Shown here: in pieces, positions 584 to 54,810 of the stretch
How positions within the stretch are numbered: the stretch's first letter is position 1
How the letters are laid out: every line of letters begins with the position of its first letter
The notes under the pieces: model-generated
Database searches by the model: none
The model's input: only the letters and a program-made list of their open reading frames with translations
Told to the model about the DNA's origin: nothing
Program-made: the position numbers and the translations under genes
Assembly: GCA_000697055.1 (NCBI GenBank)
Contig: JNDT01002398.1
Span: 60,960-124,959 of the forward strand
DNA from: Saksenaea vasiformis B4078
Lineage: Eukaryota; Mucoromycota; Mucoromycetes; Mucorales; Saksenaeaceae
Direction: 5' to 3'
DNA: 64,000 bases

Positions 584-2250
584 ATGATTTCTCATGACCC
601 GATCGCAAAACAACCGCAATCAACCCGACCGTCTTTTTCGGCTCCTCTTCCTCAGAATTCTCGTAAACGGCTACGAAAACCAATGAAAACAATGAATAAG
701 GGTACCAAGGTAAGATTAATCCTTACCTATCGTCACATAACGCTTTTTACACGTTACAGAATATCATGCACCAACCATCTAGCCAATCTCAGGAAATATT
801 TTCACTCGATACATCGCGCACTCCGCTTATCAAGTTACCGCCAACATCAAAGCCTGACGAACCACAACAAGTGAATAAATCATCTGAAAAACTACTTGAT
901 GAAGACGATTCGGATGATTCGGAACCACTTGAGGTCAATGCAAGGTAAGAGCATGAAAAGAAAAAGACAGAAGAAAAAAGTTGATATCAAAGCTGCCAGT
1001 GAAAATGATCATTCTCCTGCCCCTCCATTACCGTCCTCAAGCACTATACCTAAGTCGCCTCAAGATTTACTATTTTCTCCCACGGATTATTTTCCCTCCT
1101 CCGCGGAGAAGCAGAACGAAACAAGTAAGATACTCTGACAGAAAAGTTATAAACAGTATTCACGAGCGATCAACAGATCCAGCACCAACGATTAACGTGC
1201 GTATTGCTGGCAGCGACCTGATTCAGGACATTTTCCTTTCCCCAGTAGTCGAATGTCCTCCACCTCTTTCATCGGCGGCCGAACCCGAAACAACAACAGC
1301 GGAACAACCCACTTTTGCCCTTTGTCCACCTCCTCATCTGCACAAGGCAAAAAGGCAATCTGCACGCACAGTTTTTCGACAAAATCAAAAGAGTGGCAAA
1401 GAAGAGGAACGAGATAACAACAGTAGTGCAGTGAGTCCAAGGTTTATGGCGCTCCGCAAACTGAGTGAGGCTGGTGTGGTAATTAACAGAAACTTGCATT
1501 TAAAAAAAGTATCGCTGAAACAAAAACGGAATGATTTAGTTGCCGCCGTTGGTGCTCGATCAGAAAGGGTCTGGATTAGATGAGAATTTCCAGACTCAGT
1601 TGCTAAAAAGGATCGACGAGATTGTTCAAGTTAACTTGCGGAAAATTCTTGGGAAGACTGCTCAACGCGCAGAAGGACTCTCGTCGCAACAATTTCAGCA
1701 ACAAGAAGAAGAGCTGGAGACCTTGAGACGTCGTCAGATCGAGCTTGAGAATGAAGTCAATAGCTTACGCCTCCAACATATTGGTTTAGAACGGCAGCTT
1801 GTGGAAATGGAGATGATTAAGACACGTAACACGGAGCTAGAGGCTGAAGTACAACGTCTTCGAGAGAGTGGTAAGAGCAAGAAAAAAGAATGGGCGGACG
1901 CGGTAGAGTCCGACAACGACGAGGAAATCCAAGCGGAACTCGAACGATCATGCATCCAAGCCAGATGCCAAGCGCTCGAACAGCAACATGCAGATTTAGT
2001 CCGAACCATGGAACAATGGAAAACAGAGCTTGAGACATTGCAACAAGAGAATGTGAGACTGCGTCAAATCGAAAGCATGAACGCGGTGCAAATCGAATAC
2101 ATGCAACGCGCACTGGACAAGAAATCATCCCCAAGAAGACGAAAACCAAAGAAGGAAGAATTTGTGACAAATGATGGTCGTCTTACGTTTACAACGGAAA
2201 TCGATGGACGCTTATCACAGTATACGATCAAACTACCCACGAATGCCTGA
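584..2250 (+). CDS. Coiled-coil protein of unknown function
   Basis: I do not recognise a family. The chosen ATG opens MISHDPIAKQPQSTRPSF, followed by a likely intron from 710 to about 757. A Ser/Pro/Asp-rich, disordered middle section follows. A clear intron at about 1509-1563 joins the LHLKK codons to KGSGLDEN. The C-terminal 220 residues are a strong coiled coil with heptads rich in Glu, Gln, Leu and Arg (for example LETLRRRQIELENEVNSL), then a basic patch SPRRRKPKKEE and a short non-coiled end. The junction near 945-985 is unresolved: the obvious donor at 945 gives only very short introns in frame, so an exon boundary is misread or a base is shifted there. The coiled coil suggests a scaffold or self-associating protein; no role can be assigned. 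Confidence 0.6.
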
Positions 2251-7974: not shown

Positions 7975-9305
7975 CGAGAAGCTATAGCTTTATATACATA
8001 TCACCATACTCATTATATAAATTGTAGTGAGGAAACTGCACAAGCAATGAGCAACCAAGAAGAAGAAGAAGAAGAAGACCAGAGAATAGATAGGGAGAAA
8101 AACAAAGCAACACAACAAAGACAAGCTTATGATATGCATGCACACGGTGCTACGCGTGATCAACATATCCCGAAAAACCCAGGAACTAACGTACATCTCA
8201 AGGCCAGTCAAGGTGTACAAGAAAGAAGTCTCAACCATTAACACAACTGTCACTTTTTTCTGAAACACGAACTTGTAATGATAATTTGTTTCCAGAAATA
8301 AACTGCATCCTTAAATATATTTCCAGCTGAGATGCATCAGCTCCAACAACGATTGTGAAACAAATGACACAAGTCGCCATTTAAAAGAAGTTCAGTAAAA
8401 AGACTCTATCCCATCCATTTCATTAGTTGATGTTACGTTGACGTATGAAGCCATCTGAAAAAGTACATACTGATACATGTTGAAATGGCTTCCGCTTTAT
8501 GTCTGGTAGCTGACAGCTTAGATAGTCAATATTCCTCTACCCCGGGAAGAATTCTTCAATGCATTCAAGGATAACGGCACAGTGAAATGGGTCTGCTGTT
8601 GTCATGAAATGATGCCCCAATGGTCCATGTCAAGTGTAAACAATGGGAGGTACAGGAATACGCGAGGTATTGAGTATGATGAGCGCAAGCGACCTGAAAT
8701 CTCGACGCGCTGTGACCGTTCCTACCTTATCGAGCCTTCATGCGAAGAAATAGGTATCGAAAATTAATCCATCACGTCTGAAAACGACAACGAGCGTTAT
8801 CATGACTGCTATCTGGATGTCATGCCAGGAGCTTCAGTGAGAATACCATCTCGTGCGCTTGCCCTCCAGGAAGGCGAAAATACTATCATGGTAAACTACA
8901 ATTAGCTAGTAGTCGGTGTTTAGGGTAGGTTTATGGGATGCGACAATTAGTATCCTTGACGGAACTAGCTTTTAAGAACTTGTGCACCACGAAAAGCCAA
9001 CAGATACCCTGACTAATGCCAGAAAAACCATAAAAAGCTTGTGGTGGCATCACTATGTCCACTTCAATAGACGTTTAGCCAATAAATGACTCTCCGTTTT
9101 AAGTCTTATAAACATTAAAAAACTGGCACTAGGATCACTGCATTGAGAGCAGATGGTCAATTTGCGGGCCGGATCTGCGAGTCAGTAAACAAAATAACGA
9201 GATGATATTATCATGTTTGGCTCCAGCATACATTGTGCTGCTACTCTCCTATACTGCAGGGCTCAGCAATACGTCAAATTTAGAGGTTAGACCAGATATT
9301 ATGTA
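7975..9305. other. Intergenic, no gene seen
   Basis: Only short open frames without motifs; the Glu-rich frame at 8047 is a GAA repeat artefact. It ends at the TA target site of the Tigger element. Confidence 0.4.
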
Positions 9306-11327
9306 CAGTAGATATTCGATATAAGAATAATGGCGGTCGACGAAAAATTTATGTTGGTGTAACCCTTTGTTACTATCTCAGCATCAGTTTATAAAGCCCT
9401 AGATGTCATGAAGCATAACAAATTGCCAAATCTCCATCGTATATTCTTTTACATTATCTGCAGTATTAAATATGGACTCTAACTCTTCAGTTTCGAAAGT
9501 GCCACGTTCTGCACTCACGTACAACCAGAATCAGCGCTTATCCGTCATCATGAAGAAAATCCATCCATGACCCAGTCTGAGCTTGCTGAGTGGGCAAAGG
9601 TAGCTTTCAAGCTTAACAAGGCTCCAGTGCAATCCACAATCCAGAAGATTCTTAGCAATAAGCGCAAAATTGAGAACATGTGCGATGTGGAACTTTCTTC
9701 AAAACGTCAGCGCACCGGCGTACTCCCACAATTGGAAGCTGCTCTTGCTATGTGGGTGAAATCTATGGCAGAAAACAACACCCCTATCAATCGACATATG
9801 ATTAGGGAACAGGCAAAGGTTTTCGCGAGGAAGATGAATTTCGACGAAAAAATTGCATTTTCAAATGGATGGATTGCAAACTTTATGAAAAGAGATGGTC
9901 TATCGACGTATCAGATACATGGGGAAGCGGGATCTGTTGACATCAATGACACGATGCAAGAGAAGTTGCAAGAGATCAGAGAGAAGATAAACGAGTACCC
10001 TCTCTCCCATGTGTACAACTTGGATGAGACAGGCCTTTTCTACGCAATGACGCCAGACACGACCATTGCAGATAAGCCTGTATCTGGCACAAAAAAGGAC
10101 AAGAGGAGACTTACCCTCGTATTTATCGCCAACGCAGACGGTTCACACTGTATTCCACCCTTTTTCATCGGGAAAGCCCAACGACCTCGAAGCTTCAAGA
10201 AAAAAAGTGGTACATATCAATGTGACCGAGGAACCGACTTCAGCATGCTAATGGTTATACGTAGGTGAACAGTACGGTTTCCAGTATTATTGGAGTAAGA
10301 AGGCTTGGATGACCTCTGATATCTTTGGAAAGATCTTGAAAAAATTGGACAGAATGATGCGAGCTAATGGAAAGGATATACTTCCCTTAATCGATAATGC
10401 GCCTTCCCACAAAAATATACCAGATCTGACGAACATTGAAGTAATGCTATTTCCGCCAAACACAACCTCGAAGATCCAGCCGCTGGATCAAGGGATTTTA
10501 GAATGCTTCAAGACCTATTACAGGTAGTTATTAGTAGACCGTCTTTTTCTTATTACTGACACTATTATAGATTTTTCCAGTATCGTGCTGCGTCCCTTCG
10601 ATACAATCTAGGAATGCGTCAAGATCTGTATCAAGTTGATCAGCTGAAGGCCATGATGTGGTATCTCTCTGCGTGGGCAAACGTTACTTCTCTAACGATC
10701 CGAAATTGTTTCCGTCACAGTTCACTATTCTTATGCGAAGGCGGCAGTGAAGTTTGTACCACCCCTCGCATTGAAGAAGAGGAGGATGTTATGGAGAACA
10801 TTGCAGAGAGTATCCATTACATCCATGGCCAAGAAGCAACAGTCACCAGTCTGCAACCAGAGGATGAAGATGTCGAACTGCACGCGACGATGGGTGAAGA
10901 GCAGATAATAGATGAAGTTCTGAATGAGGAAGAACCAGACGAGGATATTGAACCACTGGAGGAGGACAAGCTTATCCATTCTTTCGCAGAACAAAGAAAA
11001 GCGATTGATATCTTACGAAAGTCATTAGATATGTGTGAAGATATAGACTACCAATCAGACCGACCGCTTAAAAGAAAGCTTAATAAGGCTTTTAGAACAA
11101 CAGCAAAAGCTCTCAAAACAGACGAGCATAGCAGATCATTTCAAAAAAATGAACCAATAATATTAGCTAACCTTTACTCGATAAAAGAATATTTTTCCAC
11201 AAAAATTATTCCTTATCATACAACGAGGTTTGGAATAATTTACTGCCTACCAAATTTGTTTCCTGAAAAATTATTCTTATATCGAGGTTATTCCTTTATC
11301 GAATATTCTTATATCGAATATCTACTG
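9306..11327 (+). mobile_element. Nearly complete pogo/Tigger transposon
   Basis: The left end (9306-9329) and right end (11304-11327) are exact 24-bp inverted repeats starting CAGTAGATATTCGATAT. TA dinucleotides flank the element at 9304-9305 and 11328-11329, the expected target duplication of the Tc1/mariner/pogo superfamily. Total length is about 2.0 kb and it encloses one transposase gene. A relic end of the same family lies at 3510-3548. Confidence 0.92.
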
Positions 11328-11375
11328 TATGCTCTAGTTTGTACCGGGTGTCCTTCATGCCCGAGACTCTATTGA
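9471..11375 (+). CDS. Tigger/CENP-B-like DDE transposase, one frameshift
   Basis: Cut-and-paste transposase. Domain order: N-terminal helix-turn-helix (NPSMTQSELAEWAKVAFKL), CENP-B-type DNA-binding region (ISNGWIANFMKR-like, here AFSNGWIANFMKRDGLSTYQ), then the DDE nuclease with YNLDETGLFY, LPLIDNAPSHKN and PLDQGILECFKTYYR. Two short introns, 10222-10264 and about 10525-10570, restore the reading frame exactly (CEQYGFQYYWSKKAW and YYRFFQYRAASLRYN). The C terminus is acidic and the frame runs through the right inverted repeat to a stop just outside. Near 9540 the first frame (ALTYNQNQR) must shift by one base to reach LIRHHEENP, so this copy is slightly broken or contains a sequence error. Starting at the ATG at 9567 would lose the start of the DNA-binding domain. 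Confidence 0.85.
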
Positions 11376-12236: not shown

Positions 12237-12334
12237 AAAAAGTCGGAGTTTTGTGTGAGCTGACTTTTCCGGGATTTTTCGTACACCGCTCCATTTGTGA
12301 CCGTTAAAAGTCACAAAAAAATTTTGGAAAAAAC

Positions 12335-12342
12335 TATAAATA
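12335..12342 (+). promoter_or_regulatory. TATA-like box of the U1 snRNA gene
   Basis: TATAAATA sits about 30 bp before the predicted 5' end of the U1 RNA at 12370, the usual distance for a TATA element in a compact snRNA promoter. Confidence 0.5.
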
Positions 12343-12369
12343 CTTGGCTTCCATCATCTCTTGCAACTC

Positions 12370-12532
12370 ATACTTACCTGGGTCGTGTGTCTGGTGATCA
12401 ACAAGGCTGGGCACACAGTGGAGCTGATTGCCATTGCACAGCGGTGATCGGCTCTGCTGCGAACGCCTTCGGGTGTCTCGAGACCAGAATTTTTGCTTTG
12501 GGGGAGTTGGCGGTTCGCTGCTGATCCCCCCG
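12370..12532 (+). ncRNA. U1 spliceosomal snRNA
   Basis: The RNA begins ATACTTACCTGG, identical to the universal U1 5' end that pairs with 5' splice sites (donors in this window are mostly GTAAGT-like). The U1-70K loop region appears as GGTGATCAACAAGG. The U1A-type loop appears as CCATTGCACAGCGG. A Sm-protein site AATTTTTG lies at 12488-12495. A final GC-rich stem closes with a TTCG loop and ends in CCCCC near 12530. Total length of about 163 nt fits U1 in animals and many fungi. It defines intron donors in pre-mRNA splicing. The short open frames across it are artefacts. Confidence 0.93.
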
Positions 12533-12719
12533 CCAATAAAAAAGAAAATGAAAAAAATTCAATCGTGTTATCATAGGTACTGTAATTGGAAAGAAATTTT
12601 CTTTACCGACGTTATGTAAAACCGCCGAAGATTCTCGAATGCAATATACAATACAGTAGATGTTAGTATCACAGACAGTCAAAGAAAAAAGAAGAGAAAC
12701 ATTGCTTGATCATGATATT

Positions 12720-53373: not shown

Positions 53374-54810
53374 ATGACCATGCAAGCTGACGAAATTCCG
53401 GAAGACAGAGCCAAAATCATGTATGTTTTGTTTTGTCGTCATGCTTGTTTCTATTCCTTTTCGATGTTTGACAGCTACTGATCTTTGAATGGACAGTGAA
53501 GAGGTCCTCAACCACGCTCGTGAACGGCTGGAAGAAGCGGAAGCATCGCTCGAGGAGAATGAAGAAGAAGGCTCACCAGAAGCCTCTGAAGATATGCCAG
53601 TCGATCTTTCAACACCAGTGAGTCTGGTGCAGAAGGAGAACGACGACAAGAAGAAAAAGAAGAAGAAGAAGAAAAAGAAATCCAAAACCGCCAGTTTACC
53701 TGAGGCAGGGTCTGAACTAGCTGACGATTATAAAGAAAAATATGATGAAGACGTTATCGACGATCCTTACAGTCCGTATGTATATCAATTCAAGCGATGT
53801 TGACAAAAAACTTACCATGCCCCATTTCTAGTGAGAAGCCACTTGCACAGCGTGTCGAGTACGCTATCTGGAAGTACCGCAGAAACCATCGCTTTTCTCA
53901 AGAGAAAAACGCCCTGTTTGACCATTATCTTAAGTTTGGTGGAATCAAGACGGGTCCTAATGCTTTTCAGGGTCGCGGTGTAGGTGCTAACGCAGTGGAC
54001 GATCAAGATGTAGAGCAAGACTTCGAAGCAGCTAACGCTGCCACGGATGTTGTTCCAGATGATGAAGAGGATGAGGACTGTGTAGTCAGTTTCAGCGAGG
54101 TGGCCCAGGTATACTTTGGCAATTACTTTATTGCCTCGAGTCGGTTCATTGGTGTGCAAGACTACATCGACTCACCCGTACTCGTCGATGCCTTTCTGAG
54201 GTATCTGCAAATTCGCAATGTTTGTCCTGAACACAGCGATGATATTGCCAAGGCACGTGCTATCGTTGCTGAGGCAAAAGTGCAGTTGCCGATGTGCAAA
54301 CGTGTCTCTGGCTTACTCCCTGGAAAGTTTAACACGGCTTGCTCGATGGTGATTGAAGGGAAACAGAAATCACTTTCCATTGTCGATCAAACATGGCTAC
54401 AGGGTGCAGGCAAGCAGACGTGGCGTATTGATGATTTCATGGCGGATTCCTTGGGCATGAGCTTTTCTGAAGCAAAAACACTTATTAAGGCTGTCGTTGG
54501 TGATTACAAAGCTGCAGTTGCTTCTGTGGAACCTCACGAAAACCTGTTTGTCAAAATTGCCGCCATTGACTCGTTTGATCCGGCCTGTGACCCGGAGCAC
54601 TTGGTGAATGTAACCTTAGCCAATTACGACGATGAAAGTGAAAAGTATACTGTCAAATTTGATCGTAACATCGTGGAGAGTTTACTGGAGGGAATGGTCA
54701 TGACCACCACACTTTACACACTTGCAAATGGTTTATCCTATGTCGATGACGCAAGACTTCTCATGCCTAACTTTTACATGGTGGACGAATATGGAACGGA
54801 GGATGATTAA
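53374..54810 (+). CDS. arb1: Arb1, Argonaute siRNA chaperone (ARC) complex subunit
   Basis: In fission yeast, Arb1 binds Argonaute with Arb2 and is needed for siRNA maturation and heterochromatin. Three exons (53374-53420, 53497-53775, 53832-54810) sum to 435 codons, 434 residues. A Lys run ([15 protein letters not shown]) marks the basic N-terminal region. The Arb1 domain follows: KPLAQRVEYAIWKYRRNHRF, FDHYLKFGGIKTGPNAF, EVAQVYFGNYFIASSRFIGV, FLRYLQIRNVCPEH and MCKRVSGLLPGKFNTACS. The gene implies an active or recently active RNAi-chromatin pathway, consistent with the transposon load of the window. Confidence 0.9.

Follow-up and report, generated by a model that had tools for sequence, protein, structure and literature searches.

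Flanking signals that the U1 snRNA gene of a Mucorales mould has in common with other small-RNA genes

A U1 snRNA gene near a DNA transposon

We analysed a 64-kb stretch of genomic DNA, hereafter the window. Both strands of the whole window were scanned with Rfam, and the sole match at gathering threshold was the U1 snRNA model RF00003 at 12370-12530 on the plus strand (Table 1). The match reaches 98 bits, the gathering score being 69.5, with an E-value of 2.3e-23 for the full window, and it spans model positions 1-166 of 166. An earlier note on this DNA had proposed an unannotated U1 gene here from its 5' end, U1A loop, Sm site and TTCG-capped stem, and all of these are present within 12370-12532. 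The 5' end, ATACTTACCTGG at 12370-12381, is complementary to 5' splice sites, CATTGCAC forms what we take to be the U1A-binding loop core, and the TTCG-capped final stem ends at about 12532. The segment 12370-12536 folds more stably than its shuffles (z -2.9), 1 of 200 of which was equally stable. The RNA ends given here are Rfam boundaries, not mapped transcript ends, and the comparisons below are made within a single genome.

Two checks proposed in that note bore out its identification: the covariance model recovered the gene at once and over its full length, and the search for other genomic copies of U1 found at least one more, on contig C595. Its TATA-like promoter at -30 is likewise in place, with TATAAA spanning -35 to -30, and its expectation that ORF-based annotation would put two or three false small proteins here was about right: two ORFs that start with ATG and encode at least 20 aa overlap 12370-12532, one of 26 aa and one of 58 aa, each on the minus strand. 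Relative to RF00003, the window copy has the same full-length match, 5' end, U1A loop, Sm site and last stem, and differs at one base of loop I. Judged from its sequence, the window RNA is an ordinary, genuine U1 snRNA gene, an identity supported by the Rfam model, by the second genomic copy and by differences between the two copies that mostly preserve pairing.

The surroundings were described less accurately in the note, which had set the gene inside a transposon island. One pogo-like element was found, about 1 kb upstream, and the U1 gene lies outside its inverted repeats. These are 26-bp perfect terminal repeats (9304-9329 and 11304-11329) with TA at both ends, and between them HTH_Tnp_Tc5 and DDE_1 domains are split across two frames. 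The U1 start is 1,041 bp beyond the transposon end, and no transposase domain was found in the 8 frames tested at 13.2-19.3 kb (10 of the 26 frames from 7.5-20 kb were tested). Farther along the window, an ORF at 53797-54810 on the plus strand matches, at 183 bits, the Pfam family PF09692 of Arb1, a subunit of the Argonaute siRNA chaperone.

Table 1. Features at and near the U1 gene, in window coordinates
Feature	Position	Strand	Basis or remark
pogo/Tc5-like DNA transposon, neighbour outside the U1 gene	9304..11329	+	terminal repeats, transposase domains
GTGAC, upstream motif copy 1, common to small-RNA genes of the genome	12297..12301	+	motif comparison
GTCAC, inverted copy 2 of the upstream motif	12310..12314	+	motif comparison
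CTATAAA TATA box, -36 to -30	12334..12340	+	12328-12340 identical in the second U1; match alone not significant
TTGCAACTC, immediately before the RNA start	12361..12369	+	kept in the second U1
U1 snRNA	12370..12530	+	Rfam RF00003, 98 bits
Stem-loop I loop, GATCAACAAG, with a G to C change at 12402	12396..12405	+	alignment
U1A-loop core CATTGCAC (presumed)	12432..12439	+	sequence, Rfam alignment
Sm site AATTTTTG, between core and last stem	12488..12495	+	sequence, Rfam alignment
3' element AAAAGAAAATGAAAAA	12540..12555	+	common to 11 other small-RNA genes (consensus, at most 2 mismatches)

Two U1 loci share a compact conserved unit

The second U1, on C595, was found by an Rfam search of the genome (38.7 Mb in 666 contigs; the best candidates were scored, so that RNA copy counts are lower bounds). 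When the two U1 loci, each extended by about 1.5 kb in both directions, were compared by BLASTN, the sole significant match was window 12361-12555 (94%), starting 9 bp before the RNA and stopping with a 16-bp element that lies 10-25 bp past it. Because only this interval is significantly alike, the conserved unit is the RNA together with TTGCAACTC before it and the 16-bp A-rich element after it. The next-best matches were one of 27 bp at E 0.10 and one of 13 identical bp at the TATA box at E 0.36, so the TATA-box match between the loci rests on position, not on score.

This comparison also bears on the possibility that the window U1 is a retrotransposed or transposon-carried pseudogene, as the pogo-like element upstream might suggest. 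We consider such an origin highly improbable, since the gene keeps upstream and downstream signals that an RNA retrocopy would lack, and we rejected a transposon-borne U1 because the gene stands outside the inverted repeats and the significant homology between the two loci stops where the gene and its signals stop. The U1 sequence had no match in a plasmid collection.

The two RNAs differ in 12 of 166 alignment columns, three of which are gaps (one at the cut end), and five of the 12 differences fall outside predicted pairs. The predicted fold of the C595 copy, which near the U1A loop is not the one given by Rfam, has 58 pairs. In the window copy 52 of these are unchanged, three are kept with a one-sided change, one is kept with a two-sided change and two are broken. 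One of the unpaired differences is a G to C change in loop I, which is bound by U1-70K: the second genomic U1 and the Rfam consensus have GATCAAGAAG there (consensus GAUCAaGAAG, one base off the window copy). The window U1 could be a variant or decaying copy, one that binds U1-70K less well because of its loop I change and leaves most of the work to the C595 gene. This departure from both C595 and the consensus, a score of 98 versus 100.9 bits and, in the last stem, an A.C mismatch all lean that way; however, its TATA box, its GTCAC motifs and its 3' element are all intact, four of the six changed pairs still pair and the other Rfam landmarks are kept, and we regard this reading as unlikely.

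A 3' element common to small-RNA genes

Twelve small-RNA genes of the genome were compared (two U1, two U2, U4, two U5, U11, U12, two U3 and RNase P RNA). All 12 have a consensus of the 3' element, AAARRAAATGAAAAA, in the 100 bp that follow them, with at most two mismatches and at +9 to +61 from the Rfam ends, a count that is descriptive, the consensus having been relaxed after all 12 genes had been inspected. Ten genes carry it without a mismatch, U1b with one and U11 with two (shuffle p 0.03), and at U12 it lies 61 nt past the Rfam end. At none of three U6 loci was it found, the best sites there having 3 to 7 mismatches, like shuffles (p 0.28-0.73).

Independent support comes from a genome-wide exact search with a stricter word read from U1, U2 and U5. 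It returned 16 matches versus 15 for a reversed control, and because the control is about as frequent, it is the position of the word and not its rarity that is telling. Five of the 16 belong to defining genes (both U1, both U2 and one U5). Among the other 11, two lie behind U3 genes and one behind RNase P RNA, 11-14 nt past the 3' ends. The first U3 passes its Rfam cut-off with 54 bits, and its paralogue, at 51 bits, falls short of the 80 bits that the plant U3 model requires; RNase P RNA scores 129 bits (Rfam). On the assumption, used in place of a measured null, of 30 small-RNA genes with a 50-bp target each, three such matches would arise by chance with a probability of about 1e-12, and of about 2e-8 when the U3 pair is counted once.

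The matches at RNA genes also differ from the rest in what precedes them. Within 500 bp upstream, CTATAAA is present at eight of nine matches, namely those at RNA genes and at a candidate locus on contig C38 (L012, described below), versus none of the remaining seven. The exception is RNase P RNA, which has TTATAAA, a word also found upstream of two of the remaining seven (36 bp at L015 and 354 bp at L016). GTCAC/GTGAC over 500 bp cannot separate the two groups, because six of the remaining seven carry it as well.

Upstream motifs and polymerase clues

In the 200 bp before the RNA, 11 promoters contain 28 GTCAC/GTGAC sites versus 3.3 in dinucleotide shuffles (maximum 11 in 1000 shuffles), for a motif that was chosen by eye in these same promoters and with U11, which has none, left out of the pool. 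Each of the 11 promoters has at least one site, and the motif is their second commonest 5-mer, behind AAAAA. Taken singly, the promoters of U1b, U12 and one U3 are not enriched (p 0.11, 0.09 and 0.20), and no site is present in the 200 bp upstream of the three U6 loci. Nine of the 12 genes have CTATAAA, and RNase P RNA has TTATAAA instead; U11 has neither a TATA box nor GTCAC, and U12 has no TATAAA. In half of the genes (6/12: both U1, both U2, U12 and one U3), TTGCAAC or TTGCAAT starts no more than 20 bp from where the RNA is annotated to begin. As a genome-wide finder, a TATA box plus TTGCAAC gave 35 matches versus 183 for its reversed control and was discarded as useless alone.

Nine of the 12 genes have no run of five or more T in the 100 bp behind them; the other three have one, at +71 after U4, +80 after U11 and +28 after RNase P RNA, the last a T6 run. 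Such runs are thus scarce here, whereas each of the two good U6 genes closes with T7, so that U3 and the spliceosomal RNAs other than U6 are likely to be made by Pol II. The T6 run behind RNase P RNA could be a Pol III terminator; together with the TATA count, it slightly lowers the probability that we give to readings in terms of a small-RNA pathway.

INTS11 and SNAPC3 are encoded in the same genome

A beta-CASP search of the genome found three genes. One is INTS11, with 649 bits to INTS11 chains versus 294 to CPSF73, and the other two, by the pieces tested, are CPSF73 and CPSF100 as separate genes; INTS9 was not among the three genes that this beta-CASP search found. The INTS11 active-site motif HFHLDH appears intact across a splice junction inferred from the Apophysomyces protein, and HxHxDH is present in 119 of the 120 homologues listed (the best 120 of 5236 matches). 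Some of these 120 are named INTS11 and many 'beta-lactamase-like', the named entries being from early-diverging fungi. Contamination is an unlikely source of the INTS11 gene, because its 284-kb contig also bears a U3 gene with the shared signals. SNAPC3 exons were found on contig C464. Among the matches listed, the closest named relatives of the host proteins are from Apophysomyces (85% identity for INTS11, 64-70% for biotin-protein ligase), and by these proteins the host is a Mucorales mould with kinship to Apophysomyces.

INTS11-like proteins are reported in plants and Dictyostelium too, so the metazoan-only wording of reviews is not the whole picture. Two reviews, in the portions consulted, call Integrator metazoan-only (PMC5493778, PMC9006982), and the fungal INTS11 proteins, as identified by homology, contradict this for the INTS11 subunit.

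There is an alternative to an Integrator role at the 3' element. The U1 could be real and the element a poly(A)/CPSF-type or generic A-rich terminator, with INTS11 serving other transcripts. The element is indeed A-rich, AATAAA or ATTAAA follows within 60 bp in 5 of the 12 genes, INTS9 is missing from the three beta-CASP genes, and sequence co-occurrence is the sole link of the element to INTS11. Against this stand a fixed word with a TG core, its perfect form in most of the genes, the seven genes that have no poly(A) hexamer and the recovery of U3 and RNase P RNA genes by the word search. We judge a terminator of this kind possible but doubtful.

Comparison with metazoan genes and a proposed pathway

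Metazoan Pol II snRNA genes, as described in the portions of two reviews consulted, are served by a PSE, a 3' box and Integrator (PMC5493778, PMC9006982); likewise, the genes studied here have a common upstream motif and an element past the RNA, and SNAPC3 and INTS11 are also encoded. The metazoan 3' box GTTTN0-3AAARNNAGA, in full or as the core AAARNNAGA, was found within 100 bp of none of the 12 genes. The fungal element is thus like the metazoan 3' box by position and not by sequence, and because of the 0/12 sequence matches we do not class it as a member. Unlike the metazoan snRNA signals, it is also present at U3 and RNase P RNA. Most of the genes studied also have a TATA box, a feature that among human snRNA genes marks those transcribed by Pol III, according to the portions consulted (PMC5493778/PMC9006982).

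A survey of ncRNAs in Lichtheimia corymbifera (PMC4133162), in the parts consulted, likewise describes a Mucorales snRNA set that includes minor-spliceosome RNAs. TATA, PSE and Oct elements were sought there at Pol III transcripts, including RNase P, and none was found, unlike the RNase P RNA gene of the present, different genus, which has a TATA box and GTGAC; the same parts do not mention a 3' element (PMC4133162). No earlier Mucorales snRNA 3' element was named in the open-licence titles and abstract openings searched, and print reports beyond that set may exist.

The best explanation, which we hold to be probable, is an ordinary U1 gene that belongs to a SNAPc-like and Integrator-like small-RNA regulon. 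Pol II would start downstream of the TATA box, and the GTCAC motifs would serve as an snRNA-specific promoter element, probably bound by SNAPc including the SNAPC3 of this genome. The nascent RNA would then be cut or terminated at AAARRAAATGAAAAA just downstream, most likely by an INTS11-containing nuclease. Trimming would follow, the Sm ring and U1 proteins would bind, and the RNA would recognise 5' splice sites. Here we infer transcription, polymerase, factor binding and cleavage or processing from what the genome contains: the RNA gene, its second copy, the shared elements and the two protein genes. For the 3' element, action by INTS11 would be the most economical assignment in view of their co-occurrence.

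A wider reading, which we put forward tentatively and with a little less than even confidence, is that early-diverging fungi may have kept an ancestral opisthokont pathway, in which SNAPc-type promoters and AAARRAAATGAAAAA as a fungal 3' box cut by INTS11 would serve spliceosomal RNAs, U3 and perhaps RNase P RNA; the same word would also expose a small-RNA gene on C38.

The RNA itself is routine, and what is of more interest lies outside it, in the flanking signals common to small-RNA genes. These suggest a dedicated snRNA 3'-end signal in a fungus with INTS11 and SNAPC3, and hint that fungi retained an RNA-finishing system that some reviews call animal-only. If INTS11 reads the signal, the snRNA 3'-end pathway would predate animals and would be tractable in simple laboratory moulds. 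The shared signals may also help to locate small-RNA genes missed by homology.

Other small-RNA loci in the genome

The genome also yields at least two U2, one U4, two U5, three U6, one U11 and one U12. The U12 (G000:C260:2915-3035, minus strand) has ATGAGTAAGGA and an Sm-like site and scores 43.3 bits, below the Rfam cut-off of 53; the U11 lies at G000:C285:16905-17062 on the minus strand. With both RNAs found, the fungus probably has a minor spliceosome; for Apophysomyces, a published survey reports no U12 in the parts consulted.

Two good U6 genes (L008 and L009) share a long, near-identical upstream block with TTTAAATA, and have no CTATAAA, GTCAC or 3' element. The third U6 (G000:C390:70586-70693, minus strand) is diverged (53.7 bits) and has TAATCTCAAG just before the Rfam match and once more at the 3' end, which gives this fungal copy the look of a retrotransposed pseudogene.

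The candidate small-RNA gene on C38 (L012; 3' element at G000:C38, 79705-79720, minus strand) has, in a span of about 300 bp, CTATAAATA, a pair of GTGAC motifs and the 3' element, with CTATAAA lying about 200 bp before the element. No Rfam family came near threshold there, and words resembling box C and box D were seen by eye. The RNase P RNA locus (G000:C564; RNA at locus positions 1527-1828, minus strand) has TTATAAA, GTGAC motifs and the 3' element, followed by T6; RNase MRP RNA was not found in the genome. At L016, a 3' element match (G000:C226:16701-16716, plus strand) has no Rfam match; TTATAAA lies 354 bp and GTCAC/GTGAC 371 and 64 bp upstream, a spacing that resembles that of RNase P RNA. 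The U2 and U5 core words had no match in viral contigs, and three contigs of prokaryote-labelled assemblies match the U2 core word.
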